From assembly GCA_027025615.1 (NCBI GenBank), contig JALVQM010000067.1, positions 1 to 37,893 on the forward strand: 37,893 bases of DNA, in the 5' to 3' direction. Below are positions 6,108-37,092 of the stretch, piece by piece. The position numbers were made by a program, and so were the translations under genes. Below the pieces are notes generated by a model, which was not told where the DNA came from, did no database searches, and saw nothing but the letters and a program-made list of their open reading frames with translations. Each line of letters starts with the position of its first letter. Position 1 is the first letter of the stretch. The stretch is from Desulfobacteraceae bacterium. GTDB taxonomy: Bacteria > Desulfobacterota > Desulfobacteria > Desulfobacterales > Desulfosarcinaceae.

Positions 6108-6186
6108 TTGTTCAGCGGACCTGGAAAAAAGTTTTACAAGATTTTCACTTTTCGGCAATACCACTAAACATGAGAAAAGGTTTTTG

Positions 6187-7917: not shown

Positions 7918-8963
7918 AAAAGAAAACCAGCAAAGTTCAGGTGGATCAGCTGTTACAACAAGCCTACGAATTCTCCTTTTTCCAGGCGATCCGCCTTCTC
8001 CGCCAGGCCTGCCGGCAAGAGCCAAAGCAGGCGGATATCAGGGTGCGCCCCAAGCTGTTCCTCGGTTTTCCGGCTGCTGATATAGACCGCGTAACAGTGG
8101 AAAAAAACAACGACCGCAAGCTTTATTGCATGACAGCCAATTTTCTTGGGCTTTACGGGGTTTCCTCCCCCCTGCCCATATTTTATACTGAAGACCTGAT
8201 TGAAGAGCGGGCCCAGGACGAATCGGTCAGCCGGGATTTCCTGGACATCTTCAATCACCGGCTTTACGACCTGCTTTTCGAATGCTGGCGCAAGTACCGT
8301 CTTTTTTTCCAGGTCAACGAGTACAATGACCAAACGGTAAAAGAACGGCTGTACTGCCTTTTAGGCCTTGGCTCCGGCACGGCGCGCAAGGAAATGGACA
8401 ATTCCCGGCGACTTTTGCGCTACCTGGGATTATTTACCCAGTTTCCCCGCAGCGCCACCGGCTTGTCCACCCTGCTTTCCGATGCCCTTAAAAATGTTCC
8501 TATAACCATCATTCCCTGCATTGCCCGCAAGGCGAGGATTGCCGAGGATCAACGTTTTTCCCTTGGCCGGGCCAACTGCCGCCTGGGCGGAAACTCATAC
8601 CTTGGAAACCAGGTCCGGGACCGGATGGGTAAATTTCGCATAAGGATCGGTCCCCTGGATCAGGAAAAGTTTCTGTTTTTCACCCCCGGAAACCCGGGAT
8701 ACAGCGAGCTTGCCGAGCTGACCTCGTTGTATCTCAACCAGCCCCTTGAATGCGAGGCCGAGCTGGTAATGGCACCCGGCCAAGCCCAAACTACCTGCCT
8801 GGGTAAAAAACCGCGGGCCTGTCTGGGGGTAAACACCTGGGTTTTCGGCGGACATACTATCGATCGCCAGATGGAAATCCGCTTTGCCGTCAGACAACCT
8901 CAAACCACCCCGGCCCCAGGAACCGCAAATGGTCCGGCCGAAGAGGAAAGGATAGCATCATGA
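7914..8963 (+). CDS. tssG: TssG baseplate protein (VasB/ImpH)
   Basis: 'QAYEFSFFQAIRLLRQ' plus 'LGLYGVSSPLPIFYTEDLI' TssG signatures; ATG at 7914 overlaps tssF stop. Confidence 0.93.
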   Translation: MKKKTSKVQVDQLLQQAYEFSFFQAIRLLRQACRQEPKQADIRVRPKLFLGFPAADIDRVTVEKNNDRKLYCMTANFLGLYGVSSPLPIFYTEDLIEERAQDESVSRDFLDIFNHRLYDLLFECWRKYRLFFQVNEYNDQTVKERLYCLLGLGSGTARKEMDNSRRLLRYLGLFTQFPRSATGLSTLLSDALKNVPITIIPCIARKARIAEDQRFSLGRANCRLGGNSYLGNQVRDRMGKFRIRIGPLDQEKFLFFTPGNPGYSELAELTSLYLNQPLECEAELVMAPGQAQTTCLGKKPRACLGVNTWVFGGHTIDRQMEIRFAVRQPQTTPAPGTANGPAEEERIAS

Positions 8964-11578
8964 TTCGTGTGGACATCAAGGCTCTGATCGAACGCCTCAA
9001 CCCTTATTGTGTCAACTGCCTGGAAGCAGCCGCAGGCATGTGCGTCGCCCGTACCCATTACGAGGTTACCGTGGAGCACATGCTTTCCAAGCTGATCGAT
9101 TCCCCCCAAACCGATATTCCCTTGATTCTCAAGCAGTTCGACATCGACCCGGGTCGGTTCCAAAAAGCCCTGGACCAGACCTTGGAAGGGTTTTCCACCG
9201 GCAATGCAGCCAAGCCGGTCTTTTCGCCTATTTTACTCGACTGGCTCCAGGACGCCTGGCTGGTCGCCTCGGTGGACATGGGAGAAGCCCGTCTGCGTTC
9301 CGGTGCCCTGCTGCTTTCACTGCTTAACCGCCCCCTGCAATTGGCCGCCGGTGACTGGATTGACCTGCTGGCCGATCTTAACAGGGACACTATCTCCAAG
9401 CAGTTCTGGGAACTTGTCAAGGGATCCAGCGAAAAGGCGGTCCGCCCCGAAGTGGTGGAAACCGAAGCCGGCCGACCCACAGGTGAAACCGCCCTGGAGC
9501 GTTTCTGTGTCGATTTTACCGCCAGGGCCGCAGCAGGAGAAATCGATCCTGTATTCGGGCGCGATGGTGAAATCCGACAAATGGTCGACATTCTAGCCCG
9601 ACGTCGCAAAAACAACCCCATCGTGGTGGGTGAAGCCGGGGTTGGCAAAACCGCTGTCGTCGAAGGACTGGCCCTGCGGGTGGTAGAAGGAGATGTGCCC
9701 GAAATTTTGCGTGAAGTTTCCATCATGGGACTGGACATGGGACTGCTGCAGGCCGGGGCAGGGATGAAAGGCGAATTTGAAAACCGACTGAAATCGGTAA
9801 TTAACGAAATCAAGGCTTCAGAAAAGCCGATCATCATGTTTATCGACGAGGCCCACACCCTTATAGGGGCTGGTGGCGCTGCCGGTATGAGCGATGCCGC
9901 CAACCTGCTGAAACCGGCCCTGGCCAGGGGTGAACTGCGGACCATCGCAGCCACCACCTGGTCGGAGTACAAGAAATACTTTGAAAAAGATGCAGCTCTG
10001 GCACGACGTTTCCAGCCCGTAAAACTGGACGAACCTGACGTTGAAACGGCCAAGCTGATTTTACGCGGGCTCAAGACCAAGTACGAAAGCGCCCACAAAG
10101 TGGTGGTCCGGGATGATGCCATTGAAACTGCTGCAGAGCTTGCCAGTCGTTATATTTCAGGCCGCCAGCTTCCCGACAAGGCCGTCGACCTGCTCGACAC
10201 CAGCGCAGCCAGGGTGAAAATTTTACTGACCGCCACCCCGGATATAATCGAGGACAAGCAGCGCCGCATCCAGGCCATCGACCGGGAACTGGATGCCATG
10301 GCCCGTGACCGGCTCCACGGAGTACAAATAGATATTGAGCACCAAAAAGAACTGGAAAACGAACGCCGGGATCTCAATCAACAAATGGAACAGCTCAAAG
10401 AGCGCTGGCTCAAGGAGCAGGAGCTGGCCCACCAAGTTATCGATCTGCAGAGCGAGTTGGAAGAAATGCAGGAAGATGGCGATCAAAGACAAGTCATCGA
10501 AAATCAGCTTTCCGACCTGCGGGCCAGGCTCGCCGAGATCCAGGGTGAAGAGCCCCTGGTACGCACAGAAGTCGACCCTGACGTGGTCTCCAAAGTGGTT
10601 TCGGACTGGACAGGAGTGCCCCTGGGCAAGGTTATGCGGGACGAAGCAGCCAACGTAGTCAACCTGGAAGAAAACCTGAAGCAAAGAATAAAAGGCCAGG
10701 ATCAGGCCTTGACGACCATCTGCAAGGTAATCCAATCGGCAAAAGCCGGTATCAAGGATCCCAATCAGCCCATGGGTGTATTTCTGCTTGTGGGACCCAG
10801 CGGTGTAGGCAAAACCGAGACAGGCCTGGCCATTGCCGACCTGCTCTTTGGTGGTGAAAACTTCATGGTAACCATCAACATGAGTGAATTTCAGGAAAAA
10901 CACACTGTCAGTCGCCTGATTGGATCACCGCCTGGTTATGTGGGCTACGGCGAAGGGGGTGTGCTGACCGAGGCCGTACGCCAGCGACCTTACTCTGTAG
11001 TCCTGCTGGACGAAGTGGAAAAGGGTCACCTGGAGGTAATGAACTTATTTTACCAGGTATTCGACAAGGGAATGCTGTCCGACGGCGAAGGACGACTGAT
11101 CGATTTTAAAAATACAGTAATATTTCTTACCAGCAACCTTGCCACCGATGTAATCACCGAGATGTGTGCCGACGGAAGACCGGACCTGGAAACCATTGAA
11201 GCCGCGGTCAGGCCGATTCTGTCCAGCCATTTCAAGCCGGCCCTGCTAGCCAGAATGACAGTGGTGCCCTATCTTACCCTGGATAGCGACATCCTGAAAC
11301 AGATTGTTGCTCTCAAAATGGAAAAACTGGTGCGCCGCTTAGCCGAGACCCATAAAATGGAACTGGTTTATACTCCGGCTGTGGCCGATCAGATTGCTGC
11401 CCGTTGCACCGAAGTTGAAACCGGGGCCCGCAATATCGACGCTATTATGAACGGATCCATCATGCCGCGCATGTCACATGAGATCCTGGCCCGTATGAGC
11501 CAGGCCGAACTGCCTTCAAGGGTAGTGCTGGATCTGGACGATGAAGGTGGCTTTGTTGTCAAGTTTGACCAAGCTTAA
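8960..11578 (+). CDS. clpV: TssH / ClpV AAA+ ATPase
   Basis: 872 aa; two Walker A motifs (GEAGVGKTAVVEG, GPSGVGKTETGLA), 'IGSPPGYVGYGEGGVLTEAVRQRPYSVVLLDEVEKGH'; ATGA overlap with tssG. Confidence 0.97.
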   Translation: MIRVDIKALIERLNPYCVNCLEAAAGMCVARTHYEVTVEHMLSKLIDSPQTDIPLILKQFDIDPGRFQKALDQTLEGFSTGNAAKPVFSPILLDWLQDAWLVASVDMGEARLRSGALLLSLLNRPLQLAAGDWIDLLADLNRDTISKQFWELVKGSSEKAVRPEVVETEAGRPTGETALERFCVDFTARAAAGEIDPVFGRDGEIRQMVDILARRRKNNPIVVGEAGVGKTAVVEGLALRVVEGDVPEILREVSIMGLDMGLLQAGAGMKGEFENRLKSVINEIKASEKPIIMFIDEAHTLIGAGGAAGMSDAANLLKPALARGELRTIAATTWSEYKKYFEKDAALARRFQPVKLDEPDVETAKLILRGLKTKYESAHKVVVRDDAIETAAELASRYISGRQLPDKAVDLLDTSAARVKILLTATPDIIEDKQRRIQAIDRELDAMARDRLHGVQIDIEHQKELENERRDLNQQMEQLKERWLKEQELAHQVIDLQSELEEMQEDGDQRQVIENQLSDLRARLAEIQGEEPLVRTEVDPDVVSKVVSDWTGVPLGKVMRDEAANVVNLEENLKQRIKGQDQALTTICKVIQSAKAGIKDPNQPMGVFLLVGPSGVGKTETGLAIADLLFGGENFMVTINMSEFQEKHTVSRLIGSPPGYVGYGEGGVLTEAVRQRPYSVVLLDEVEKGHLEVMNLFYQVFDKGMLSDGEGRLIDFKNTVIFLTSNLATDVITEMCADGRPDLETIEAAVRPILSSHFKPALLARMTVVPYLTLDSDILKQIVALKMEKLVRRLAETHKMELVYTPAVADQIAARCTEVETGARNIDAIMNGSIMPRMSHEILARMSQAELPSRVVLDLDDEGGFVVKFDQA

Positions 11579-11601
11579 CCAGGAAAAAGGGAGTATTAGC
11601 C

Positions 11602-13773
11602 ATGCCTGCCAATGAGCCCGAGTTTACTTTCGAAATTGCCGGAAACCATTTCCACGTGGTTGCCTTTAAAGCCCGCGAAAAGATTTCAGATCTTTTTCAA
11701 ATTGATCTCCAGCTGGCAACCGAAGAAGAAGTGGATTTTCCCGATGTAATCGGCCAGGCTGCAATTTTTACCATTGAAGGAATCGAATCCGAGCGCCGGT
11801 TTCACGGTATTGTCAACCGTTTTGCCCAAACCGGCTCCTCAGGTCGCTTTTTTCTGTACACGGCCCAAGTAGTCCCGTCGGCCTGGTTGCTGAACCTGGA
11901 GCAGGATTGCCGGATCTTCCAGAACAAGACCGTACAGGAAATCATTCAACAGATAATGGAAGAATCGTCCATTGCCTCGGACGCTTTCGACTTCAGGCTC
12001 CATGAAAATTATACCGCCAGGCCCTATTGTGTCCAGTACGATGAAACCGACCTGAATTTCCTCAACCGACTCTGTGAACAGGATGGAATTTTCTACTTTT
12101 TCGAGCACTCCCAGGAAGGGCACGTTATGGTCTTCGGCGACGGCCAGGTCAATTACCAGCCAATCGAGGGTGAAGCTCAGATAGAATACAACCCAGACAG
12201 CAGTATGGTGGCTGAAGAAGAAGCTGTCGTAAGTTTCAGATTCGATCGCCAGTTGACCCCCGGCAAATTCAGCACGCGGGACTACAATTTCACCCGGCCG
12301 TCTCTGGATCTTACCTCCGAACAGACAGCCGAAGACAACACCGAGAGGGAAATTTTTGAATTTCCAGGCCTCTACGAAGAACAGAGCGACGGCGACCGTC
12401 TGGCCCAGGTGAGGCTGCAGCAAACGGTGATGTTCAGGGATCTTGCCAGCGGCACCGGTGTCTGCCCCCGGTTTGTTCCCGGTTTTACCTTCACCCTGAG
12501 CGGCCACAGCCTGGATTCACTAAACCAGGAGTACTTGCTGACAGAAGTAATCCACGAGGGTAGCCAGCCCCAGGTACTGGCCGAAAGAAGTCGCACCGAC
12601 GAGCCCAGCAATTACATCAACAGTTTCAAGGCCGTGCCTTCATCGATAACCATCCGGCCGGAGAGGCGCACGCAACGGCCCAGAATCCGCGGAGTACACA
12701 CCGCCGTGGTGGTTGGGCCCTCGGGTGAAGAAATCTACACCGATGACATGGGGCGGATCAAGGTCCAGTTTTTTTGGGATCGCAATGGACAGAGCGATGA
12801 AAACAGTTCCTGCTGGATCAGGGTCAGCCAGGCCTGGGCCGGATCCGGTTGGGGAGCGCTTTTTATCCCCAGGATCGGCCAGGAGGTGGTGGTCGATTTT
12901 ATCGAGGGAGATCCCGACAGGCCGCTTGTTACCGGGACCGTTTACCACGGTACAAACACCCCGCCCTGGGACCTGCCGGATGAAAAAACCAAAAGCGGAA
13001 TCAAAAGCGAAAGTTCCACCGGCGGCGGGGGCAACAATGAAATCCGTTTCGAAGACAAGGCCGACAATGAAGAGCTCTATATGCACGCCCAAAAGGATAT
13101 GAACATCGAGGTCAACAATAATCACAGCCGCACTGTGGGCGCCAATGACAGTTTAAGCATCAAGAAAAACCGCAATATCCATGTAAAGCAAAACTGCGAA
13201 GAAAAAATCGATCAGCAGCGCAAGCTAACCATCAAGGGCAAACATGAACGCACGGCTGAAAACGACGAAACCATCAACATCACCGGCAAACGCAAACTAA
13301 CTGCCGGTACCGAAGAGCACAAGGTAAATGGAAACCGCAAGCTGGATGTTACCGGCAACGAAAATTACACTGTAACCGGCTCGCGCACCTTCAGGGCCCG
13401 CTCGGAAACCCATACCATAGGTACAACCAGACAAGTAAGCTCCCAATCAGAAACCAAAAGAGTATCTTCCTCCCGAACATTTACCGCTGGTGTTGAAACT
13501 TACACCGTAACCGGTGCCCGCACTCTCACAGTAGGTTCCGAAAACCGGACGGTCACCAACCAACAGACCTTTCTGGGCATGGATGTGACCACCGATTCAG
13601 GGGCCAAGTTCGAAAACTTCGCCGGGATGAAATGCTCAAACCATTTGGCCCTGTTGATGGAGCTGAAACAGCTCACCAACAGCGTAACTAATATAAAGCT
13701 GGAATACACAAATGTGTCATGTACTCAGAATGGAATCGAACTCGATCCAGCCACTTTACACATAATGACCTGA
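11602..13773 (+). CDS. vgrG: VgrG (TssI) spike protein with repetitive beta-helix C-terminus
   Basis: 'FRFDRQLTPGKFSTRDYNFTRPS', 'TAVVVGPSGEEIYTDDMGRIKVQFFWDRNGQSDENSSCWIRVSQAWAGSGWGALFIPRIGQEVVVDFIEGDPDRPLVTGTVYHGTNTPPWDLP' are VgrG hallmarks. Confidence 0.97.
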   Translation: MPANEPEFTFEIAGNHFHVVAFKAREKISDLFQIDLQLATEEEVDFPDVIGQAAIFTIEGIESERRFHGIVNRFAQTGSSGRFFLYTAQVVPSAWLLNLEQDCRIFQNKTVQEIIQQIMEESSIASDAFDFRLHENYTARPYCVQYDETDLNFLNRLCEQDGIFYFFEHSQEGHVMVFGDGQVNYQPIEGEAQIEYNPDSSMVAEEEAVVSFRFDRQLTPGKFSTRDYNFTRPSLDLTSEQTAEDNTEREIFEFPGLYEEQSDGDRLAQVRLQQTVMFRDLASGTGVCPRFVPGFTFTLSGHSLDSLNQEYLLTEVIHEGSQPQVLAERSRTDEPSNYINSFKAVPSSITIRPERRTQRPRIRGVHTAVVVGPSGEEIYTDDMGRIKVQFFWDRNGQSDENSSCWIRVSQAWAGSGWGALFIPRIGQEVVVDFIEGDPDRPLVTGTVYHGTNTPPWDLPDEKTKSGIKSESSTGGGGNNEIRFEDKADNEELYMHAQKDMNIEVNNNHSRTVGANDSLSIKKNRNIHVKQNCEEKIDQQRKLTIKGKHERTAENDETINITGKRKLTAGTEEHKVNGNRKLDVTGNENYTVTGSRTFRARSETHTIGTTRQVSSQSETKRVSSSRTFTAGVETYTVTGARTLTVGSENRTVTNQQTFLGMDVTTDSGAKFENFAGMKCSNHLALLMELKQLTNSVTNIKLEYTNVSCTQNGIELDPATLHIMT

Positions 13774-13788
13774 AGCGGCATTTTAGCC

Positions 13789-16359
13789 ATGAAAATAATC
13801 AAACCCTTGAAACTGGGCTTGCTGTTTAAGACCTTTGAATACCGGGGGCGCTGTTTCTGGTCTCCGGCCTTACTGATCTTTTTCGACTTCCAAGACAGGC
13901 CTCAGCTGGAAACAGAGGTTGACCTCTGGAAGCTGGTGCCCCAGCGCTTGGGACAACAGATCCTGGACGAGGCCATGCCCAAAAGCCGGGCCGAAATCCT
14001 GGTAAACGGTTCCTTTTTCGCCCCCGGACACAAGCCTGTAACTGCCGGCCAGATAAAGATAAAAATAGGGCCGGTGGACAAGACCCTGTACATCTATGGC
14101 AACCGCTACTGGAAACGGTCGCCCTCCCTGGCCTGGATTATTTCCGATCCAGAACCGATGCTGGAAATGCCTATAGACTGGGGTCATTCTTTCGGGGGTC
14201 CCGACTACAAGCCCAACCCCCTGGGCAGGGGAACCCAGGCAACCAAAATGCCAGGACACGGAAAGGTTGTTGCCCTGCCCAATGTCGAGCTTCCCGGACA
14301 ACTCATAGGTTCACCCAAGGATCGGCCCCCACCGGCCGGCTTGGGTCCCATCGACCTGACCTGGCCCCAGCGTTTTTCGAAATGTGGTACCTATGGCAAG
14401 CAATGGTTTGAAGAACGCTTTCCAGGCCTGCCGGATGATATCGACTGGACTTTTTTCAACACAGCACCTACAGACCAGCAGATAGACGGTTTTTTCAGCG
14501 GAAACGAGACTTTCGTAGTGGAAGGGATGCATCCTGACCACAAACGCCTGGAAGGCAGACTGCCTGCTGTCAGGCCGCGCTGTTTTATCTGCCGCCAAAG
14601 TTCAGATCAAGCCCGGGACCTTGAAGAGCTGGAACTCAACCTGGATACCGTCTGGCTTTTTCCCGACGTGCTCAAAGGCCTTCTGATTTATCGTGGACTT
14701 ACCGAGGTTTCTGATAGCATGGCCAAGGAAATCACCAAAGTATTAATGGCCTATGAAAAGCTGGACTCTCCTGCCCGGAACCTCGAACACTACCGCCAAG
14801 CGCTTGAAAAACGATCCGATCCTCAAAAGGCGGGCCTGACTCTTCTGGACGAAACCGACCTGATCGCAGAAGGCGAACGTTCCGGTATTGCTGAGCTGAT
14901 GGCCGCCGACGATGGCCAGCAGCAACAATGGGAACAGTTGCTCCAGAAAAAGCTACGCCTGCGCATGGAAAACGACCTCAAACAGGTAAGGGCATCACTG
15001 GCTTCCCAGGGGCTTGATCCAGATAAGATCCTGCCTCTGCCTGAACCTGTAGAATACGACCCCACCGACATCGACAAGCTGCTAGCAGAGGCAAAGGATG
15101 CACGCCGCAAGTCTGAACAAGTACTTGCCGGGCATTTGAAACAGCTGGGATTGACCAAACAGCAACTGGTGGAACAAGCCGAAACCAAGCCTGCACCTCG
15201 ACCGGTTTTTTCAGCAGCCCGGGCAGTTGAGACCTTCCGGTCCATTGGCATTGAAAGTAATGAGCTGACAAAAAAGATGCTGGCAATTGAAGAAACCTTT
15301 TTTCAAAGCTATCGCCAGTTCGGTCACAAGTTGCCGCCGGTTATACCTCCGGGACCGGAGACCGACGAAGAAAGGATCCAAATCTTGATCAGGGCCTGTA
15401 AAGAAGGCACCAGCCTGGCAGATATGGATCTTGCCGGGCTCGACCTTTCCGGGATGGAGCTTTCCGGAGCCAACTTGGCCGGAGCTTTCCTGGAAGGCGT
15501 AAGTCTTGCTGGAGCAGATCTTTGCGGGGCGGATCTTTCCAACTGCGCCCTGATGCGGGCCGATCTTTCAGGAGCAATGTTGAAAGGCGCCAAAATCCGT
15601 GGCGCCGGCCTTGGCCGCAGCAAGCTGACCGGGGCAAATTTTACCGGAGCAGATCTTGACGGAGCCTATCTGGTTGAAGCAGATCTTTGCGGGACGATAT
15701 TTGTCGAAGCAAGCCTTGCAAAAGCCGACCTGAGTCAGGTCAAGGCCCTCAAAGCCGATTTCAGGCGGGCTACGATCACTAACGTACGTTTTATCGAGGC
15801 TGATTTTAGCGGCGCAAATTTCAGCCAGGCCGATCTTGGAGAAGGAATTTTTATTCAAACCGTTTTGAAAAAAGCCGATTTTAACGGCTGTAAGCTGGTC
15901 AAAGCAACTTTAGTCAAAACGGACGCAACCGAAGCCGACTTCAGCAATGTGCGCTTTGACAATCTCAGGGCCGCTGCGGACTGCATCTGCGAAAAGACCA
16001 GCTTCCGACACGCATGGATGGAAGGGGCCAACCTCAGAGGGGCCAGATTGAAAGGGGCCAACTTCGATCAGGCCAACCTCGACTCCGCCGACCTGAGCGA
16101 AGCCGATTTACGCCAAACCTCCTTTCGCTATGCAACAGCCAAAAAGGCCCTGTTCATGGAGTCAGACATGACCGCAGCCAAAATGACAGGTGCCAATCTT
16201 TTTGAAAGCCTTCTGCATAAGGCCAACCTCGAACAGACCGATCTGCAGGGTACCAATCTGTTCGGGGTCGATTTCATGAAGGCCAGGTTCCGGAACACCG
16301 ATGTTCGTCAAGCCCTCACGGCAAAGTCAACCCTACTGCGCTGGATGCCGAAAAAATGA
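13789..16359 (+). CDS. DUF2169-like T6SS adaptor domain fused to C-terminal pentapeptide repeats
   Basis: N-terminus 'PLKLGLLFKTFEYRGRCFWSPALLIFFDFQ...FAPGHKPVTAGQIKIKIGPVDKTLYIYGNRYWKR' resembles DUF2169; C-terminal ~300 aa is A(D/N)LxxA pentapeptide repeats (ADLSGAMLKGAKIRGAGL...). Confidence 0.85.
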   Translation: MKIIKPLKLGLLFKTFEYRGRCFWSPALLIFFDFQDRPQLETEVDLWKLVPQRLGQQILDEAMPKSRAEILVNGSFFAPGHKPVTAGQIKIKIGPVDKTLYIYGNRYWKRSPSLAWIISDPEPMLEMPIDWGHSFGGPDYKPNPLGRGTQATKMPGHGKVVALPNVELPGQLIGSPKDRPPPAGLGPIDLTWPQRFSKCGTYGKQWFEERFPGLPDDIDWTFFNTAPTDQQIDGFFSGNETFVVEGMHPDHKRLEGRLPAVRPRCFICRQSSDQARDLEELELNLDTVWLFPDVLKGLLIYRGLTEVSDSMAKEITKVLMAYEKLDSPARNLEHYRQALEKRSDPQKAGLTLLDETDLIAEGERSGIAELMAADDGQQQQWEQLLQKKLRLRMENDLKQVRASLASQGLDPDKILPLPEPVEYDPTDIDKLLAEAKDARRKSEQVLAGHLKQLGLTKQQLVEQAETKPAPRPVFSAARAVETFRSIGIESNELTKKMLAIEETFFQSYRQFGHKLPPVIPPGPETDEERIQILIRACKEGTSLADMDLAGLDLSGMELSGANLAGAFLEGVSLAGADLCGADLSNCALMRADLSGAMLKGAKIRGAGLGRSKLTGANFTGADLDGAYLVEADLCGTIFVEASLAKADLSQVKALKADFRRATITNVRFIEADFSGANFSQADLGEGIFIQTVLKKADFNGCKLVKATLVKTDATEADFSNVRFDNLRAAADCICEKTSFRHAWMEGANLRGARLKGANFDQANLDSADLSEADLRQTSFRYATAKKALFMESDMTAAKMTGANLFESLLHKANLEQTDLQGTNLFGVDFMKARFRNTDVRQALTAKSTLLRWMPKK

Positions 16360-17483
16360 ACGATCTGGAAAAAAAGCTGGAGCAACAGATCAAGCAAGAA
16401 CTGGCTTACTTCGGTCCACCCCAACGCCTGGATCGGCAGGAGCTTGAAAAGCGCGCTGCCGGCGGAGAGTTCCTGGCCAATTTCAATTGCAGCGGCCTGG
16501 ATCTTTCCGGAATCGATCTGTCTGGATGTATAATGGAAAGGGTTGATTTCAGGGGAGCCAATCTGGAAGGCGCCCGTTTCAAAGAGGCGGTGCTCAACCA
16601 ATGCAGCCTGGACCATACCAGGCTGGCCGGAGCCAATTTATTCATGACTTTGATTACCCAGACCGGACTGGAAAAGGCAAGCGCACCGCAGTCCTGCTGG
16701 ACAATGGCCAAGATCGTGGAAAGTCCGGCCGATGGCCTGGACCTCAGCGGCTGCCAGCTTTCCAAGGCTTTCTTTTATCAGGTAAACCTCAGCCGGGCGG
16801 TGCTGGCTTCTTCCGACCTGGAACAGGCAGCTTTCATCGAAACCGTTCTAGAAGGCTGCGATTTTTCCGGTGCCTTGCTCCCCCAGGCGGTTTTGGTGAA
16901 AGTCGATTTCAGGCAGATCAATATTTCCAAAGCCGACCTGTCCCGGGCCATCCTGATGGAATCAAACTTCAGCGGCCTTGACCTCTCCGGTATAAACCTG
17001 GTTCAAGCCCAGTTGAAAGGAAGCAACTTTTTCCAAACCGACCTCTCCGGCGCCGATCTGACCCAGGCAGGGTTTGTCAAGGCTAACCTGGAAGGCGCCA
17101 ACCTGGACCGGGTCAAGGCAAAAATGGCTCTTTTCGCGGAGTCTAACCTGAGAGGAGTTTCCATGCGCATGGCCGACCTGTGCCAAGCCGTGCTCCAAAA
17201 GGCAGATCTTACAAAGGCCGACCTGCGGGCTAGCGACCTGACCGCCGCCGTGCTATCCGAAAGCAAATTCCTGGCGGCCCGGCTGGAAAAGGCCAATTTC
17301 ACTGACGCCGACATGGCCCATGCCGATCTTTCCGGGGCCGACTTGAGCGGAGCCAACCTTTTCCGGGCCAGGTTGCATCGAATCATCGACAAGGCAACCA
17401 TCTGGAAGGGCTCCAATCGGGAATCGGCCAGCGGGGACGACAAACTAAGGGTCATGGGCGAAGAATGGCAGCCGCCTCTTTGA
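16356..17483 (+). CDS. Pentapeptide-repeat protein
   Basis: Nearly whole protein is pentapeptide repeats (FNCSGLDLSGIDLSGCIMERVDFRGANLEGA...); ATG overlaps stop of previous gene (ATGA). Confidence 0.9.
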   Translation: MNDLEKKLEQQIKQELAYFGPPQRLDRQELEKRAAGGEFLANFNCSGLDLSGIDLSGCIMERVDFRGANLEGARFKEAVLNQCSLDHTRLAGANLFMTLITQTGLEKASAPQSCWTMAKIVESPADGLDLSGCQLSKAFFYQVNLSRAVLASSDLEQAAFIETVLEGCDFSGALLPQAVLVKVDFRQINISKADLSRAILMESNFSGLDLSGINLVQAQLKGSNFFQTDLSGADLTQAGFVKANLEGANLDRVKAKMALFAESNLRGVSMRMADLCQAVLQKADLTKADLRASDLTAAVLSESKFLAARLEKANFTDADMAHADLSGADLSGANLFRARLHRIIDKATIWKGSNRESASGDDKLRVMGEEWQPPL

Positions 17484-21758: not shown

Positions 21759-22690
21759 AAAAGAAAATTTACTTAATAGTTTCCGTAATTTTATTAGCAC
21801 TGTTGCCGCCAAACGCCATGGCCCGACAGGCGGACTCAACCAGAACCCTGCAAATGCCCGTGGCAGAAGCACGCCAGGCGGCTACCGAGTTTTTCGTGGA
21901 ACGCGGCTACAGTGTCTCTCCGAGTAACACCAGCCAAGGTGGCGCAATACTTTACGCGGACCGTAAAGACAGCCGGATTGAGATTCACCTTAAGCCATAC
22001 TCGGCTCTGGCCACCAGGATCAGCCTCCTGGACAAGGCCCACAAAGGACAGGTAGATATGGTAATGTTCTGGTCGGCCATGGAAAAAGCTGCTTCCGGAA
22101 CCCGGGCCATTGGCGGCCATGCCGCTGCACCTGCACCAATCGGAGTTGTGGACCTGGCCCCGGCGGTAGTTTGCCTCTATTCTAACCAGGATTCGGTTGA
22201 TTTCCAGGCCAGCGGCTTCCTCTTTGATCGTCGTGGATTGATCATAACAACGGCCCACAAAATGGTACCCGGCCACAATATCAAAATCCTTTTCAACAAC
22301 GGGGAGCGGGCTGAAGGCCGGGTGCTGAAGATAGACAAAGAGATGGACTTGGCCCTGGTGCAGGCAACCGGAGGGGTTGATGGTCCCCTGGTGAACCTGG
22401 CTGCCGGACGCTTTTACCTGGAAAACGGTGAAAAGGTGGTCAGCATTACCTGCCCTCAACCACTGACCCCCCAGTTTCACAATGGAAAGGTAGACGGTCC
22501 GCCCCGCAAGGCCGGAGGTCAGTTGCTCTGGCAGGTCAAGCTCAACGTGGAACCAGGCACCAGCGGAAGCCCTGTGTTCGACAGCCAGGCGCGCCTGGTA
22601 GGGGTGATTAAGGGCCGTTTCCGGGGCACCGACTCCATCGGGTACATTATCCCTTTTGAAACCGTTCTCCGCTTTCTGGAAATATACTGA
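21755..22690 (+). CDS. Exported trypsin-like (HtrA-type) serine protease
   Basis: Signal peptide MKKKIYLIVSVILLALLPPNAMA; His in 'IITTAHKM', Asp in 'EMDLALVQ', Ser in 'EPGTSGSPVFDSQARLVGVIKG'; ATGA overlap with PP2C gene. Confidence 0.88.
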   Translation: MKKKIYLIVSVILLALLPPNAMARQADSTRTLQMPVAEARQAATEFFVERGYSVSPSNTSQGGAILYADRKDSRIEIHLKPYSALATRISLLDKAHKGQVDMVMFWSAMEKAASGTRAIGGHAAAPAPIGVVDLAPAVVCLYSNQDSVDFQASGFLFDRRGLIITTAHKMVPGHNIKILFNNGERAEGRVLKIDKEMDLALVQATGGVDGPLVNLAAGRFYLENGEKVVSITCPQPLTPQFHNGKVDGPPRKAGGQLLWQVKLNVEPGTSGSPVFDSQARLVGVIKGRFRGTDSIGYIIPFETVLRFLEIY

Positions 22691-22694
22691 ACCC

Positions 22695-23867
22695 ATGCGC
22701 TATGGAAGATACGAAATTATTAAGGAGTTGGGCAAAGGCAACATGGGTGTTGTTTACCAGGCCCATGACCCCAGTATAGACCGGCTGGTGGCCCTCAAAG
22801 TACTGCGGCCGGATCGGGTTACCGACCAGGCTTTTGTGGCCCGTTTTCTAAAGGAGGCCATGGCAATTGGCCGGTTATCCCATCCCGGAATAGTTACCGT
22901 TCACGATGTCGGTGAGGACAAGGGAACGGTTTACATTGCCATGGAATACGTAACCGGCAGCCCCCTGGACGAAGTAATTCGCGCAGGCAAGTTGTCCGTC
23001 GAACAAAGCGTGGAAATAGCCTGCAAAGTCGCCGAGGCACTCCACTATGCCCATGAAAGGGGCATAGTCCACAGGGATATCAAGCCATCTAATATCCTTC
23101 TGAATGACAACAACGAGACCAAGATTACCGATTTCGGTATCGCCCGGATTGAAGATCCTGACAGTGGTACCATGACCCAGGCCGGGGAAATACTTGGAAC
23201 ACCGGTGTACATGTCTCCTGAACAGGTAAAGGGACAGAAGGTGGACGGCCGTTCCGACCTGTTTTCCCTGGCGGTAATTCTTTACGAGCTTGTTGTCGGC
23301 AAACGGCCGTTTGGCGGTAACAACCTGGCGGCAATTTTTCACTCCATAGCCAATGATAATCCCGACCCTCCTGCTGAAGCTGATCCTTTCATCAGTAAGC
23401 GTCTAAGTGACACAATTATAAAAGCCCTGGCAAAAAAACCCGATCAACGTTTCCAAAGTGGACGGGAAATGGCCAAAGCGCTGAAAACGGCAGTCCAGCG
23501 ACGCCAAAGCTCAAATGTTGATACCGGCAAGGTTTCATCCCGCAGGGGTATACTGGTAGGACTTGGGGCTGCCGCACTGGTCGTGTTGCTGGCAGCAGCA
23601 TGGCTGGTATTTAAACCCGCTCCTGAGCCAATACCCCATGAACCAGATGTACAAAAAGCCATCTTGAATGTCACCAGCGAACCGGATGGAGCCGATATCT
23701 TTGTAAATGGAACTTTCAGGGGCAAAACTCCCCTTGAACTGCAACTGCCCCTGGGAAAATACGAGATAGCCCTCAACCTGGATAATTATTATGAATGGGA
23801 AGCCCAGTTAGAATTTGACCAGGCCGGGCCCACCCCTTTGCATGTGCGCCTGGTACCGATCCAGTGA
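22695..23867 (+). CDS. Transmembrane Ser/Thr protein kinase with C-terminal PEGA domain
   Basis: 'YEIIKELGKGNMGVVYQAHDPSIDRLVALKVL', HRDIKPSN, DFG; TM 'GILVGLGAAALVVLLAAAWLVF'; PEGA 'LNVTSEPDGADIFVNGTFRGKTPLELQLPLGKYEIALNLDNYYEW'. Confidence 0.95.
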   Translation: MRYGRYEIIKELGKGNMGVVYQAHDPSIDRLVALKVLRPDRVTDQAFVARFLKEAMAIGRLSHPGIVTVHDVGEDKGTVYIAMEYVTGSPLDEVIRAGKLSVEQSVEIACKVAEALHYAHERGIVHRDIKPSNILLNDNNETKITDFGIARIEDPDSGTMTQAGEILGTPVYMSPEQVKGQKVDGRSDLFSLAVILYELVVGKRPFGGNNLAAIFHSIANDNPDPPAEADPFISKRLSDTIIKALAKKPDQRFQSGREMAKALKTAVQRRQSSNVDTGKVSSRRGILVGLGAAALVVLLAAAWLVFKPAPEPIPHEPDVQKAILNVTSEPDGADIFVNGTFRGKTPLELQLPLGKYEIALNLDNYYEWEAQLEFDQAGPTPLHVRLVPIQ

Positions 23868-23909
23868 AAACCAGTCGCCTTACGTAAATTCAACAAGGAG
23901 GAGCAAACG

Positions 23910-25886
23910 ATGAAGGCTGTTAAACCGTGGATAACTTGCTGGATTATGGTGGCCCTTGTAATCGCTGCAACCGCCGCCCCCGGCTTTTGCCAATTGAAAA
24001 CGGGCACCGCCGTTCCCTTGTTCAGCCTCAAGGATCTTAACGGCAAGATTTATGACCTGGCAAATATGAAAAACCAGCCCATGGTTATCCTTTACTTTTT
24101 CGATGCTGCCTCCCGCGCCAGCCAGGAAGGCCTGGTAAGCCTGGATGACCTGGCAAAAAAATATAAAGACGCCGACCTGGTTGTTTGGGGGGTTACCCGT
24201 TCACCCAAATCCAGGGTCAAGCAATTTGTAAAGAGGGTCAAACCCGGCTTTCCTATTTTGCTTGACACTTCCAAGGTTTCTGACATTTACCAGGCAAAAC
24301 TGGTGCTGCCCACCATTTGCATTCTGGGTCCGGACCTGAAATTAATGGATTTCTTTCAGGGCGGCGGCAAAACCACTGAAATAATGCTCGTCAAGCTGGC
24401 CCAGCGTCAATTGCAACGTCATCGGCCGGATCTTGCCAAAGCTATTTCTGAAAAAGTGGTCCGCAAAGATCCTAAGAACGTCGAAGCCAAAACGATCAAG
24501 GGTTATGCTGAGCTGAAAACCGGCAACATCAAGGGCGCTGAAAAAACATTTTACGATCTTTCAAGGTCGAAAGGAAAAGGCGAAATCCTTGGCAAAGAGG
24601 GCCTGTCACAAGTTTATGCCCGCAAAGGTGAAGCTGTCAAGGCTCGCCAGTTGGCACAGGAAGTAGAAAAGAAATCCGGCCAGCGGGCCCTGGTAAACGT
24701 GGTCAAGGGCGACCTGTTTTACAGCGAAAACAAGGTAAAGGATGCTGAAAAAGAATACCTGAAAGCCATATCCAAAAAATCGGCCTCACCGTACCACAGG
24801 GCAATCGCTTACAACCAGTTGGGGCGAATATACGCCACCAAAGGTGATTGGGCAAAGTCACGCAAGATGTACAAACAGGCCGTGGCTCTTGATCCTTACT
24901 ACATTGAAGCTACTTCCAATCAGGGGTTTACCTTTGAACGCCAAGGCAAGTGGACCGAGGCTTTAGCCTACTATAAGCGGGCTCTGGCGATCAACCCCAA
25001 TGATCTTTTTGCTTCCACTTTGGCAGCCGCAGCCCGTAAAATGGTAATTCTGCAACAGGACAAAGACCGCCAAAAAGAACTGGCCCGGCAGGTGGACGAA
25101 GTAGTCAAACGATTTAAAAAGAATGCTCCGGCAGCCAAGCCCCCTGCCCAGGACCCCTGGACAACCCGGGAAGCAATGGTAATAACCCTGCTGGAACCGG
25201 TTGAATCCGGAGGGCTCTCGGTTCGAGACGGTTTTGCCCGGGTCCTGGCCATGAATCTATCCCGGCAGATAAACTCTAGTGGACGGGTAAAAGCTGTCGA
25301 TCCCCTGGTTTTGGACAAGGTTTTGAACAAGCTGGGACTTAAGCAAAAGGACCTGGCCAAAGCCGAGACCCAGCTCAAGCTAGGCCGGGCTTTCAAAGCC
25401 AGGCTGATAATAAAAGGCCGCCTGTTTCACCTGGTGGACGGTACCCTGTTGAATTTCAAGCTTGTGGATACCAAAAACGGCCGGGAGGCTGCTACCGTTG
25501 AGCGGGAATTTGCCTCTACAGCCACTTTGCGCCAGGATATGCGCTTGCTTAACCGGGAAGTATTGACCACCATAATGAAAAAATACCCTCTCAAGGCCTA
25601 CGTTGTGGATGTCAGTGGCGGGCAAGTCCTGATCAACCTGGGCAAAAAACAGGGGGTTATCAACGGCACCCGTTTCGACGTGGTCGAAACCAAAGCCCCC
25701 ATAACCTACAAGGGGAAAACCTTTGCCCCGGAACCAACGGTGGTGGCAACCTTGGAAGTCTTCCGGGTAGAAGATGAATTCAGCTACGCCCACATTCTCA
25801 AGGATCAACGCCGTCCGGTTTACAAAGATGACAGGCTGATTGAGGCCGTGGCCCAGTTGGGAGAAGATGAGACCAAGCTCTGGTAA
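23910..25886 (+). CDS. Exported fusion: thioredoxin-fold (redoxin-like) domain lacking CxxC + TPR repeats + CsgG/FlgT-like C-terminal region
   Basis: Signal peptide; 'GTAVPLFSLKDLNGKIYDLANMKNQPMVILYFFDAASRAS...FPILLDTSKVSDIYQAKLVLPTICILGPD' redoxin-like; TPR units (AIAYNQLGRIYATKGDWAKSRKMYKQAVALDP, EALAYYKRALAINPND); C-term 'YVVDVSGGQVLINLGKKQGVINGTRFDVV' FlgT-like. Confidence 0.8.
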   Translation: MKAVKPWITCWIMVALVIAATAAPGFCQLKTGTAVPLFSLKDLNGKIYDLANMKNQPMVILYFFDAASRASQEGLVSLDDLAKKYKDADLVVWGVTRSPKSRVKQFVKRVKPGFPILLDTSKVSDIYQAKLVLPTICILGPDLKLMDFFQGGGKTTEIMLVKLAQRQLQRHRPDLAKAISEKVVRKDPKNVEAKTIKGYAELKTGNIKGAEKTFYDLSRSKGKGEILGKEGLSQVYARKGEAVKARQLAQEVEKKSGQRALVNVVKGDLFYSENKVKDAEKEYLKAISKKSASPYHRAIAYNQLGRIYATKGDWAKSRKMYKQAVALDPYYIEATSNQGFTFERQGKWTEALAYYKRALAINPNDLFASTLAAAARKMVILQQDKDRQKELARQVDEVVKRFKKNAPAAKPPAQDPWTTREAMVITLLEPVESGGLSVRDGFARVLAMNLSRQINSSGRVKAVDPLVLDKVLNKLGLKQKDLAKAETQLKLGRAFKARLIIKGRLFHLVDGTLLNFKLVDTKNGREAATVEREFASTATLRQDMRLLNREVLTTIMKKYPLKAYVVDVSGGQVLINLGKKQGVINGTRFDVVETKAPITYKGKTFAPEPTVVATLEVFRVEDEFSYAHILKDQRRPVYKDDRLIEAVAQLGEDETKLW

Positions 25887-31872: not shown

Positions 31873-33849
31873 ATGAAAGATCTGAGCCTTCATTTGAAGC
31901 AACTGCGTCAGCAATTGCCGGAACTGCTCGACTGCCTTCACCCCGGTGCAAGCCGGCAACTGGATACCTGGTGCAGGGTGCTGGATGTCAAGCTTCTATC
32001 ACGCTTCGGGCCTGAATTTCCACTGGTAGCGGCTGTTTGTGGTGGAGGATCATCCGGTAAATCCACCCTGGTAAACAGCCTGGCCGGAAGGCGGATCTCA
32101 CCGGTGGGTGGAACGGCCGGCTTGAACCGGCGGGTATTGCTGTTATTTAATCCACGCTGGCTTGAATCCGGGTTTTTTCTGCCGGCCCTTGAAGAAACCC
32201 TGGATGTCAAAACAGCTCCCCTGCAGACCACTGACCAGCTTGAAACTCCGGGCGAGCCACTTTACGCGGCATTGAGCTCCATGCCCGAAAACCTGGTGTT
32301 GCTGGATACACCCGATTTCGACACCGGTGCCCGCGGGCTTTACACAAACCGCCAGTCTGCAAAAAAATGGCTCGAAACCGCCGATCTGCTGATCTACCTG
32401 TTTACCAATTCAAATTACGCCAATTGCGACAACACCGATTTTCTGCGCCAGGTCCTGACCGGAATAGGCAACCGGCCTTGTTTGCTGGTTTACCGTTCAT
32501 ATCCCGGAATGGACAGCAAACTTGTACAGGAGCACGCCGGCCTGGTGGCAAAAAATATTTACGGCCGGAACCACAAGCAGATGGTTCTTGGCGTTTTCCG
32601 GGCCGATGAAGACAACGCCGTGGCCGAAGGAGGCCTGCCGCTTACCATACGGCCGGCAGACGGTGGCTCAAGCTTCATGAACCGCCTGGCAGGGGTGGAT
32701 GCCGCTGTATGGCGCAGAAGGATCGCCGCATCAGCACTGGAAGACATAGTCCATCAGAGCCGACAGGCAGCTGAAACGGCCGCCCGGTATCTTGCCCACC
32801 TGGATTTGTACCGGGCTGCACTGAAAACCATAGAAGCACGTTGTGTTACCGAGGCCCTGGCCCACTTTCCTTCCGAACGGGTTTTAAATCTGTTTACCAG
32901 GATCTGGCTCCAAACAGATCCGACCCACGTCCGCCTGATGCGCAAAACCGGCAACCTGGTGGAATGGCCCCTGGCAAAACTTTCCCGAGCCGTCAAGTAC
33001 CTCAAGGGGCAAAAACAAACCAGGGCTGAAAGCCCAGACCTTGAATCACAGCGCCGCACAGTTGAAATAGATCTGCTCCAGGCTGCCGATCACCTTTTAA
33101 GGGCTGCCACGGCAGACTCATTAAGTATTGAACTGCCTGAAGAATCTGATTTAGGGAAAATGGCAAGCACTTTTGACACCATGACTGCTGTTGGAACTGC
33201 CACTGGAAACCTCGGCACCACCTGTCCGGTTGCCCTTGCCAAAAATAAAAACAACAGTGGTCAAAACCTGCTGACCATCAGGGTTGATCTACCTGCCTGC
33301 CTTAAGCAAGCCCAAACCAGCGTACGGCGGATTGACCAGGGCCGGCTCAATTTGCGCCTGGCCGGCTGCAAGGATCAAATCCTGCAGCCGTCAAGCAAGC
33401 TGGAGTCGGATCTTCAACAGCTTGCATCCGGTTTGCGTGAAGAAATGGGCCTGCTGGATCAGCTGCGCCAGACAGCCGCGGCCATGCTCAATGTACTGCC
33501 AGCCACCGCTGCGGTAACCTATATTATTTCCACCGGCGATCCGGTGGGAGCAGCAGCCATAAAGATAAAACTGGGCGGGCTTTTCGGTCTCAAGGATCTT
33601 TATGCCCTGATCGCGATTCCGGCTACCAGCAGTTTGAAAAAGGCCGACCGCCAACAACTGCAAAAAGTGCTCGGTCCGGTTGCCCGCAGCTGGCTGGACA
33701 GTAAGCTGTCCCTTGTGCAAAATCTGTTTGCAGAGCATATTACCGGACAACTTGTCGTTGCCGCCGATCAAATTCACACCACCGCAAGCGGCCTGCTTGA
33801 GCAGGTTGAAGCCCTGACAGACCGGATTCAGAAGAAAGGAACCCAATGA
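31873..33849 (+). CDS. Dynamin-like/YfjP-type P-loop GTPase (first of pair)
   Basis: P-loop 'AAVCGGGSSGKSTLVNSLAGRRIS', G3-like 'LVLLDTPDFDT'; hydrophobic C-terminal patch; no clear NKxD. Confidence 0.8.
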   Translation: MKDLSLHLKQLRQQLPELLDCLHPGASRQLDTWCRVLDVKLLSRFGPEFPLVAAVCGGGSSGKSTLVNSLAGRRISPVGGTAGLNRRVLLLFNPRWLESGFFLPALEETLDVKTAPLQTTDQLETPGEPLYAALSSMPENLVLLDTPDFDTGARGLYTNRQSAKKWLETADLLIYLFTNSNYANCDNTDFLRQVLTGIGNRPCLLVYRSYPGMDSKLVQEHAGLVAKNIYGRNHKQMVLGVFRADEDNAVAEGGLPLTIRPADGGSSFMNRLAGVDAAVWRRRIAASALEDIVHQSRQAAETAARYLAHLDLYRAALKTIEARCVTEALAHFPSERVLNLFTRIWLQTDPTHVRLMRKTGNLVEWPLAKLSRAVKYLKGQKQTRAESPDLESQRRTVEIDLLQAADHLLRAATADSLSIELPEESDLGKMASTFDTMTAVGTATGNLGTTCPVALAKNKNNSGQNLLTIRVDLPACLKQAQTSVRRIDQGRLNLRLAGCKDQILQPSSKLESDLQQLASGLREEMGLLDQLRQTAAAMLNVLPATAAVTYIISTGDPVGAAAIKIKLGGLFGLKDLYALIAIPATSSLKKADRQQLQKVLGPVARSWLDSKLSLVQNLFAEHITGQLVVAADQIHTTASGLLEQVEALTDRIQKKGTQ

Positions 33850-35648
33850 TACCTGCCAGCAAGCAGTTGAAAGCCGCAGGCAAACTAGCCCGCGTGGAAA
33901 ACGAAATTCGCAGGCTTGAGCAACAATTGGATCAACTCGACCTGTGGCTGCCTTCTGCCGACCTGCGCCACCAGGCAGAGAAGGCCTTGGAATTGCTTGG
34001 TAAAATTCGCCAGCGGATAAACCGTCAACTGGTAGTCACCCTGGTGGGGCCTTCCGGAGCCGGCAAATCCACCATCTTCAACGCCCTGGCCGGCCGGGAC
34101 GAAATATCATCCACAGGACCCAATCGCCCTACTACCCGCGGCCTGCAGGTATTGTGCTCCGATGGTGTTAATGCCGCCAACATTCTCGGTATTGAAGATT
34201 CAACGGACGTGGATATTCATATTTTCAGCCAACCGGCTTTTCCTGAACAGATTATCCTGGTAGACACCCCGGACACCGATTCGGTAGCAGCCCCAATCCA
34301 CAGGATTCTAGTCAAACAGGCCATTGCTATCTCCGATGTGCTGATCTGTGTTTTTGATACTGAAAATCCAAAACGCAGGGATCATGCTGATTTTCTGGCA
34401 CCACTGATAAGTCTCTTTGCCGGTCACAACCTGGTGGTTGTGCTCAACAAGTGTGACCGCCAGGACCGGGAGGAACTGCATCAGAACATCATTCCCGACT
34501 TTCGCAAATACCTGGCTGTGGCCTGGCAAATGCCGGTTGATCAGGTACTGGCGGTAAGTGCCCGCAGCCATTTGCAAAACCCGGACTGGGACCCGCAGAT
34601 CAAGCCTCGTCACAACTGGGACCAGTTCGACAAATTAGGTGAACTTATCCACGGTGAGCTGGCCAGGCCCGAGGCAGTGATCAACATACGCCTGGAAAAC
34701 GCCAGACACCTTCACAGCTACCTGATGGAAGCGCTCCGGAACCAGGTGGCAAAAGACCTCCCATGGCTGCAAAAAGCCCTTGAATCAGTTGCTAAACTGG
34801 AAACAACGGCCCTGGAACATTCCCTCCAGGCCCTGGAGACTGATTCTGAAACATTGACCCAGGGAACCGGAATCCGTTTATATCAATTGCTGGCCCGCGG
34901 GTGGATGGGACCTGTAGGCTGGATCCTGGCACTATGGTCCCGGCTGCTGATTTTTGGTGCCGGAGCCATTTCGATCCTACGTCCCGGTCGACCACTGAGC
35001 CAAGCCGCAGGGCTTGTCTCGGCCTTGCGCCACAGATCCGCCAGCAAGGCCAAACTGTCCCGTCTTTCTGATGCCGGGGCTGCGACCGCTGCCGCCCAGG
35101 CTTTCCAGATGACAGTGTTGCAAAACTGGCCACATACGGCAGACCTGCTGTGCAAAGCCCATTTCGACCACAAGGTACGCGACCCTCAGTCAACCATGTC
35201 GGCTGCCATCGAGCTTGCCGACACCATCTCTGAAACTTGGGCAGTAGCCCTGGATAAAAAGCTTCAAAAGGCAGCCGGACGACTGCAAAACGGACTGTTG
35301 CAATTGATTCTCAACCTGCCGGCCCTTGCAGCACTGGTTTATGCAGGTTGGCTTACCCTGAAAAATTTTTTCCGGGGTTCATACCTGCCGGCCGACTTCT
35401 TTATTCATTTCCTGGCAGCTGAAATCATCCTGGTACTGGCCGGTTTTTTCATTGTTCAACTAGCTGTCCAGTTCACCGTCCGCAAAGGCCGTCTCCAGCG
35501 CCAGGCTTTCTCCCAACTTCAAGGTTTGTCAAGGTCCGGCAGGGCCTTTGAAAAGCTACCGGCCATTAAACAGGCCTCGCTAATTCTTTCACTGGCAAGT
35601 GTCGAAAATGATATTGAACACCCTGGACTCAAGGATTCAACAGGATGA
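33846..35648 (+). CDS. Dynamin-like/YfjP-type P-loop GTPase (second of pair), membrane-associated
   Basis: P-loop 'VGPSGAGKSTIFNALAG', G3 'IILVDTPDTDS', G4 'VVLNKCDRQD'; two C-terminal hydrophobic segments; ATGA overlap with previous gene. Confidence 0.85.
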   Translation: MIPASKQLKAAGKLARVENEIRRLEQQLDQLDLWLPSADLRHQAEKALELLGKIRQRINRQLVVTLVGPSGAGKSTIFNALAGRDEISSTGPNRPTTRGLQVLCSDGVNAANILGIEDSTDVDIHIFSQPAFPEQIILVDTPDTDSVAAPIHRILVKQAIAISDVLICVFDTENPKRRDHADFLAPLISLFAGHNLVVVLNKCDRQDREELHQNIIPDFRKYLAVAWQMPVDQVLAVSARSHLQNPDWDPQIKPRHNWDQFDKLGELIHGELARPEAVINIRLENARHLHSYLMEALRNQVAKDLPWLQKALESVAKLETTALEHSLQALETDSETLTQGTGIRLYQLLARGWMGPVGWILALWSRLLIFGAGAISILRPGRPLSQAAGLVSALRHRSASKAKLSRLSDAGAATAAAQAFQMTVLQNWPHTADLLCKAHFDHKVRDPQSTMSAAIELADTISETWAVALDKKLQKAAGRLQNGLLQLILNLPALAALVYAGWLTLKNFFRGSYLPADFFIHFLAAEIILVLAGFFIVQLAVQFTVRKGRLQRQAFSQLQGLSRSGRAFEKLPAIKQASLILSLASVENDIEHPGLKDSTG

Positions 35649-36211
35649 CTGTCGGGGAAAAAGTATGTCCGGTACAAAAGGCTGGGCACTTGGACAGCCG
35701 TGTCAGAAGCTGGCTGCAGCAACCTGCCAGGATTCTGGCGCCTTACCTGAAAGAAGGTATGCTTGCCGTCGACTTCGGATGCGGGCCGGGTTTTTTCACC
35801 CTTGAAATGGCTCGCAGGGTCGGTTCGTCGGGCCGGGTCATAGCAGTCGATCTGCAGGAAGGAATGCTGGAAAAACTGGCAAAAAAGGTAAAGGCATCCG
35901 GGCTTGCAGATAGGATCGACCTGCACCTTTGTGAAAAAAAATCAATCGGAATTAAATCAGAGGCAGACTTTATCCTGGCCTTTTACGTTGTCCACGAGGT
36001 GCCGGACCAGGATCGGCTTTTCCGGCAACTGGCCGCCATCCTCAAGCCCGGCGGGCACCTGCTGCTGGCAGAACCCCTTTTCCACGTTTCCAAAAAAGCT
36101 TTCGCCCAAAGCCTGGCCCTTGCACAACTGGCCGGTTTTAAACTGCTTTCCAGGCCGCCGCTTTTATTCAGCAAAACAGCCCTGTTGACCAGGCCGGTAG
36201 CGTCTGGTTAA
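35645..36211 (+). CDS. Class I SAM-dependent methyltransferase
   Basis: Motif I 'LAVDFGCGPGFFTLEMARRVGSSGRVIAVDLQEGMLEKLAKKVKASGL'; ATGA overlap with GTPase gene. Confidence 0.9.
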   Translation: MTVGEKVCPVQKAGHLDSRVRSWLQQPARILAPYLKEGMLAVDFGCGPGFFTLEMARRVGSSGRVIAVDLQEGMLEKLAKKVKASGLADRIDLHLCEKKSIGIKSEADFILAFYVVHEVPDQDRLFRQLAAILKPGGHLLLAEPLFHVSKKAFAQSLALAQLAGFKLLSRPPLLFSKTALLTRPVASG

Positions 36212-36249: not shown

Positions 36250-37092
36250 TCATGTCTCAGTTTGAGCTTTCGTTTTGTTGCACAGTGCCAAAGCCTGCAT
36301 CAAGCGTCCGGTGCGATTTCCCGGCCTGCCGCTGCCTATGGTTGTATCATCCACCTGGACCACCGGTACCAGGCCCTTGTTGGTGCCGGTTATGAAAACT
36401 TCGTCGGCCGTCAGAAGCTGTTTGCGTGAAATATCGCGCACCTGTACATTGAAAAACTTCCTGGCCAGTTCCAGGACCACTTTGCGGGTTATCCCGGATA
36501 AAATACCCTTTCCCGGAGTTGCCAGGGTATCGCCAAAAAATGCGAACAGGTTACTGGTAGCCCCTTCCAGCACATTGTCCCGGTCATCAACGTAAATTGC
36601 TTCAATGGCTCCATTGGCCCTGGCCTGCGAAAGGGCCATGGCTGCCGGCAGATAGTCAATGCTTTTGGCATCGGGAACATGACGGGTAGAAGCCATGGTA
36701 ATTACCTTGACTCCCTTTTCGTACCACCAAGCGGGCAGCTTGGGCAGGGGGGTGACAAGTATTATCAGCCGCGGCCTGCCCTGGGGAGTCATAAAATCCG
36801 GGCTGGATCCGCCGGTTATAACCATCCTGATGTTTGCCTCGTCAAGCTGGTTGCGGGCCAGGGTTTCGGTGACAATCCGCCGGATCTCATCCTGGCTCCA
36901 TGGCGGCTGGAGGTTGATCTTGCGGGCAGAATTCAACAGCCTGGCTATATGTTCCTCAAGAAACAGGGGTTTGCCATTGTAAGTGCGCAAAAGGTCAAAT
37001 ACCCCTATACCCCTGAGCAGGGCCAGGTCGTCCACCGGAACAACAGCCTTTTCAGCCGGTACGAATTCACCGTCAACATAGTATATGGGCAC
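36250..37092 (-). CDS. Class IV PLP aminotransferase (branched-chain / D-amino-acid aminotransferase family)
   Basis: 'YYVDGEFVPAEKAVVPVDDLALLRGIGVFDLLRTYNGKPLFLEEHIARLLNSA', 'IYVDDRDNVLEGATSNLFAFFGDTLATPGKGILSGITRKVVLELA'. Confidence 0.93.
   Translation of the reverse strand: MPIYYVDGEFVPAEKAVVPVDDLALLRGIGVFDLLRTYNGKPLFLEEHIARLLNSARKINLQPPWSQDEIRRIVTETLARNQLDEANIRMVITGGSSPDFMTPQGRPRLIILVTPLPKLPAWWYEKGVKVITMASTRHVPDAKSIDYLPAAMALSQARANGAIEAIYVDDRDNVLEGATSNLFAFFGDTLATPGKGILSGITRKVVLELARKFFNVQVRDISRKQLLTADEVFITGTNKGLVPVVQVDDTTIGSGRPGNRTGRLMQALALCNKTKAQTET

Follow-up and report, generated by a model that had tools for sequence, protein, structure and literature searches.

The locus and its two GTPase genes

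The window analysed here is a 37,893-nucleotide stretch of DNA from a Desulfobacteraceae bacterium (assembly GCA_027025615.1, contig JALVQM010000067.1, positions 1 to 37,893), and our subject is a pair of adjacent genes within it that encode two large P-loop GTPases, which we call A and B. A sequence-only reading of the window had proposed that A, B and a downstream methyltransferase gene are joined by ATGA overlaps, and the overlaps are present as described. The three open reading frames (ORFs) lie at 31873-33849 (658 amino acids), 33846-35648 (600 amino acids) and 35645-36211 (188 amino acids). The features of the GTPase pair are as follows.

31873-33849, plus strand: GTPase A, first gene of the pair, dynamin-like with altered G4 and switch I (ORF; Pfam Dynamin_N, 3.7e-9; 71 orthologues)
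32041-32067, plus strand: A G1/P-loop GGGSSGKST, residues 57-65 (GKS in 71/71 orthologues)
32119-32133, plus strand: A switch I GLNRR, residues 83-87, its Asn opposite the second Thr of B RPTT (N 69/71, first R 71/71)
32299-32328, plus strand: A G3 LLDTPDFDTG, residues 143-152 (D, P, D, D, T and G each 71/71)
32482-32514, plus strand: A G4-equivalent LLVYRSYPGMD, residues 204-214, lacking NKxD (Y 71/71, R 69/71, NKxD 0/71)
33472-33627, plus strand: A weakly hydrophobic C-terminal segment, residues 534-585, in conserved alignment columns (hydropathy 1.54); a candidate lipid-contact tip
33846-35648, plus strand: GTPase B, second gene, dynamin-like with canonical G motifs and a transmembrane-type C-terminus (ORF, PDB and PADLOC profile matches, motif tallies, hydropathy)
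34047-34073, plus strand: B G1/P-loop GPSGAGKST, residues 68-76 (GKST 70/70)
34125-34136, plus strand: B switch I RPTT, residues 94-97 (70/70)
34257-34283, plus strand: B G3 LVDTPDTDS, residues 138-146 (D, P, D and D 70/70)
34446-34457, plus strand: B G4 NKCD, residues 201-204 (Asp 70/70, Asn 69/70)
34923-34979, plus strand: B hydrophobic segment, residues 360-378 (Kyte-Doolittle mean 1.97)
35304-35456, plus strand: membrane hairpin predicted for B, residues 487-505 and 519-537 (mean Kyte-Doolittle values of 1.79 and 2.49 over 19-mers)

The earlier description of A, with a P-loop, a DTPD G3 and the residues LVYRSYPGMD where NKxD is expected, was borne out, as was that of B, with NKCD and two transmembrane-like segments; to these the present analysis adds the third hydrophobic segment of B at residues 360-378. 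The C-terminal hydrophobic segments of B are membrane-grade, with a median best segment of 2.48 over 70 proteins, whereas most A proteins stay below 1.6. By Kyte-Doolittle hydropathy, the measure used throughout, the candidate membrane tip is a strong hydrophobic pair in B and weak in A.

A conserved pair with one altered nucleotide site

The searches covered 60 relatives and, at wider range, 291 class-level and 395 phylum-level genomes. A was present in 76 of the 291 class genomes and B in 81, in nearly the same set of genomes and all within one order; outside the class, the 395 phylum genomes gave weak G-domain matches only. We read 71 non-redundant A loci at the level of the order, and in 70 of them B is the next gene downstream, on the strand of A, with A always first. 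Recurrence at 70 of 71 loci puts the pairing far beyond chance, and the arrangement is the conserved side-by-side one of paired dynamin-like proteins. With start codons assigned mechanically, the two ORFs overlap at 53 of these 70 loci, by exactly four nucleotides at 21.

The P-loop and G3 of a dynamin-type G domain are invariant in the 71 A and 70 B proteins, and in A the constant residues extend to the D-T-G that follows the D-x-P-D of G3. The two proteins part at the remaining motifs. All B proteins carry RPTT in switch I, whereas A has Asn in place of Thr in 69 of 71. At G4, where B keeps its Asp in all 70 proteins and its Asn in all but one, profile-profile alignment sets A LLVYRSYPGMD opposite B VVLNKCDRQD without a gap; in A the Asn is replaced by Tyr (71/71) and the Lys by Arg (69/71), a conserved acidic residue is missing beyond that Arg, and no sequence has NKxD. 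An intact G4 elsewhere in A was also ruled out, as none of the 71 orthologues has an [NT]KxD in the 200 residues that follow G3. Several A residues past G3 (N159, R160, N179, Y182, N184, N187, Y207, H221 and R243) are each found in 71/71, and this invariance suggests selection for an altered site, not decay. As judged from these alignments, the asymmetry between A and B is real, fixed across the order and wider than first noted. Pairing of dynamin-like proteins is already known, but a conserved one-sided loss of NKxD is not described in the open-access literature that we searched, where we also found no bacterial dynamin with a degenerate G4 or of pseudo-GTPase type.

A second family of pairs (loci L102-L131) was reached in other classes of the phylum from the weak matches. 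Like the pair in the window, it consists of adjacent dynamin-like genes, the first with a degraded G4 and the second canonical, with a comparable hydropathy split; a partner gene lies within 300 nucleotides downstream in 19 of 27 loci, and some of the others are at contig ends. NKxD is intact in the second gene (23/23). Unlike A, the first gene retains the switch-I Thr and the N-K of G4: N-K/R is kept in 26/26, while the Asp is lost in 24/26 (NKxD 2/26). Because an acidic residue stands two positions further on (NKxxx[E/D]) in 16 of the 26, base reading in these first genes may have been shifted rather than lost. In a G-domain tree the four groups separate, with A joining B and the two sister groups joining each other, and long branches are flagged in it. 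A single unequal pair of ancient origin would fit the sequences, and so would two pairs that arose in parallel. Proteins of the second-family first-gene type also occur without an adjacent partner (L102, L104, L105/L111 and L106), and at L104 and L106 the unpaired protein is near an HflX-like GTPase, with an ORF of 850-890 amino acids between them.

Family assignment and comparison with known pairs

A profile of 26 A orthologues and one of 24 B orthologues align over 192 G-domain columns (hhalign probability 99.1), and on this ground we take A and B to be paralogues. For B the relation to characterised proteins is direct. Its top PDB profile match is 5owv_A, Cj-DLP1 of Campylobacter (E=1.5e-7), followed by Cj-DLP2 (5owv_C, E=2.2e-5); the PADLOC LeoA model matches its residues 42-336 (E=4.5e-11) and the LeoBC model also matches (7.7e-6). 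Pfam finds MMR_HSR1 and Dynamin_N in B (29.5 bits vs a cut-off of 27), and B has the [N/T]KxD G4 motif of bacterial dynamin-like proteins. Homology of A to a characterised member runs only through its paralogy with B. Its placement in the dynamin family would rest on this paralogy and on a Pfam Dynamin_N match above cut-off (37.3 vs 27 bits) that spans only 27 residues in the P-loop region. Since A lacks the [N/T]KxD motif, it is best filed as a divergent paralogue of a dynamin-like protein and not as a canonical one. Crude AlphaFold models of these 600-658-residue proteins show mostly helical C-terminal halves, at a predicted local distance difference test score (pLDDT) of about 40.

Most bacterial dynamin-like genes are paired, and the Cj-DLP1/Cj-DLP2 pair (PDB 5owv/5oxf) forms a 2:2 tetramer in which mutation of either P-loop leaves negligible GTP turnover (PMC6104087). 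The Campylobacter genes resemble A and B in lying side by side in an operon and in having P-loops in both proteins, in addition to matching the B profile. They differ in that the aligned G4 of Cj-DLP1 is TKAD, with the Asp kept, where A has Tyr-Arg and no Asp, and in that B has a transmembrane-type hairpin; homology between the two systems is known mainly over the G domain. LeoA/LeoBC of enterotoxigenic E. coli are likewise tandem dynamin-like genes, and the LeoA profile matches B. One of the Leo partners, however, is divided between two genes, whereas A and B are each encoded by a single unbroken ORF, in relatives as in the window, and LeoA, unlike A, keeps most of its hydrolysis residues (PMC4159319). 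LeoA alone bound no nucleotide (PMC4159319), which suggests that it may depend on a partner. A third comparison is IniA/IniC of mycobacteria, also two dynamin-like genes per operon, of which IniA is a characterised membrane-fission GTPase and IniC could not be studied (PMC6715688). In IniA, unlike A, K200 and D202 serve in G4 (PMC6715688), and IniA/IniC were not among the matches of the A and B profile searches.

A changed G4 has a precedent further afield. In the GBP/atlastin branch of the dynamin superfamily, G4 is replaced by an RD motif in which the base-reading Asp is retained. In A, by contrast, acidic residues beyond the Arg are not conserved.

An unequal GTPase pair and the alternatives

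From the pairing, the gene order, the fixed asymmetry and the hydropathy difference, all read from sequence, we infer a complex with trans-activation. On balance we favour the view that A and B are unequal subunits of a hetero-oligomeric membrane-remodelling dynamin-like machine, B the anchored GTPase and A a partner with an altered pocket that acts in trans. B would be the canonical GTPase, held in the membrane by the hydrophobic hairpin at its C-terminus. Because A retains that half of the pocket which binds phosphate (P-loop and G3) while its switch-I Thr is replaced by Asn and NKxD by Tyr-Arg, it most likely binds a triphosphate, its choice of base being relaxed or altered and its hydrolysis slow or absent. 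By analogy with the heterotypic G-domain contact proposed for the Campylobacter DLP1/2 tetramer, A could act on B in trans, its docking triggering GTP hydrolysis by B, and the hairpin of B would then turn hydrolysis into membrane tethering or remodelling. The earlier proposal of a dynamin-like pair with one specialised subunit is thus upheld by the pairing in 70 of 71 loci, the fixed loss of G4 and the matches to 5owv and LeoA, and its heteromeric membrane remodelling is retained as a conjecture.

Several observations weigh against this interpretation. One genome (G053) has A and B on separate contigs (C89 and C268). The matches to solved dynamin-like proteins span mainly the G domain, and single-sequence AlphaFold models of A and B reach a mean pLDDT of only 40.7 and 39.2. 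A tree joining the first genes of both pair families was not rejected (approximately unbiased test, p = 0.47), and the tree is compatible with a shared duplication as well as with separate ones. Finally, A could still prefer GTP, since 43.3% of guanine-binding PDB complexes lack NKxD, and guanine binding draws in part on Lys/Arg cation-pi interactions and aromatic stacking (PMC11594714).

This last point leads to an alternative that we regard as unlikely, namely that both proteins are ordinary GTPases, that A reads guanine non-canonically through cation-pi contact of its Arg and stacking of its Tyr, and that the asymmetry is mechanistically mild. The constancy of the Tyr-Arg pair and of the other residues after G3 would fit such a pocket, as would the NKxxx[E/D] of the sister family. 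A has, however, no conserved acidic residue past Tyr-Arg and no switch-I Thr, and its operon partner B drifts at neither site. It is a rather improbable but distinct idea that A has been re-tooled for a non-GTP nucleotide, ATP or a signalling nucleotide; the pair would then be a mixed-nucleotide membrane machine in which A gates the GTP-driven B according to the state of the cell. Loss of both G4 and the switch-I Thr could also mean that A is a genuine pseudo-GTPase, unable to bind nucleotide, which serves as a scaffold and only assembles or targets B. We consider this doubtful, as the GKS and DxPD invariant in all 71 proteins are hard to explain without phosphate and magnesium binding.

That the pair are Era/Der-like ribosome GTPases and not membrane machines is very unlikely. 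NCBIfam Era is the top family model for B, at 46 bits against a cut-off of 237, and the top PDB matches of the A profile are the P-loops of Der and Era, but each of these matches is confined to a short part of the shared G domain, and B has transmembrane-grade segments and a Campylobacter dynamin-like protein as its top PDB match. The idea that the pair is a LeoABC-type system for anti-phage defence has equally little to recommend it. The PADLOC LeoA and LeoBC models do match B, but neither A nor B is split as LeoBC is, and the neighbours in relatives are housekeeping-like and recurrent, with htpX upstream and a class IV aminotransferase gene downstream. The flanking genes that bear on this and on the proposed methyltransferase link are listed here.

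35645-36211, plus strand: class I S-adenosylmethionine (SAM) methyltransferase, identified by domain match, with an ATGA overlap with B; unlinked or absent in relatives and not conserved in the unit
36250-37092, minus strand: class IV aminotransferase, a convergent neighbour outside the unit (downstream of the pair in 17/34 loci)
Upstream of A on the same strand, at L042, L047, L050-L052, L055, L058-L064, L067, L068, L071, L072, L152, L159 and L167: HtpX-type M48 membrane protease

The HtpX-type gene is found at at least 20 of the 71 loci, many contigs ending early; 17 of these loci are in the family of the window, and the other 3, in a different family, have gaps of 42-64 nucleotides. There is no HtpX-type gene at the window locus, and the genome carries M48 genes elsewhere. 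This recurrent neighbour hints at a possible role in membrane quality control.

The sequence-only reading had linked the methyltransferase to the two GTPases, and here it did not hold: the two-gene pair is conserved, and in every relative where the region downstream of B can be seen, the methyltransferase is missing from beside it. Its homologues, 39-54% identical, sit at unrelated loci, and none was found in two same-genus genomes. Of the same-genus genomes, G002 has an aminotransferase gene directly after B, and in G001 an aminotransferase gene also follows B. The link is private to this genome, and a conserved three-gene unit is not supported; a role for the methyltransferase, as part of such a unit, in modifying the two GTPases or a lipid is hardly credible, for its ATGA overlap with B in this genome is set against its absence at every other locus examined. 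In a promoter scan, the count of 6 did not clearly exceed that in shuffled sequence (4.3 +/- 2.2).

Elsewhere in the window, positions 635-17480 hold a type VI secretion cluster (TagF, VasJ/ImpA, VipB sheath, TssF, TssG, a ClpV-like ATPase and VgrG) and, after it, genes for two pentapeptide-repeat proteins, the first a DUF2169-pentapeptide protein. At 22656-25886 are a Ser/Thr kinase with a PEGA domain and then a protein combining AhpC/TSA, TPR and FlgT_C-like regions. Because further Dynamin_N proteins are encoded on other contigs of the same genome, G000 (C330, C444 and C205; L031-L033, L036 and L037), several dynamin-like systems may coexist in it.

The asymmetry described here, found across about 70 genomes of one order, bears on the question of why dynamin-like proteins need two partners. 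It predicts which subunit would hydrolyse GTP, and it opens trans-activation across a heterotypic interface between G domains to direct tests.

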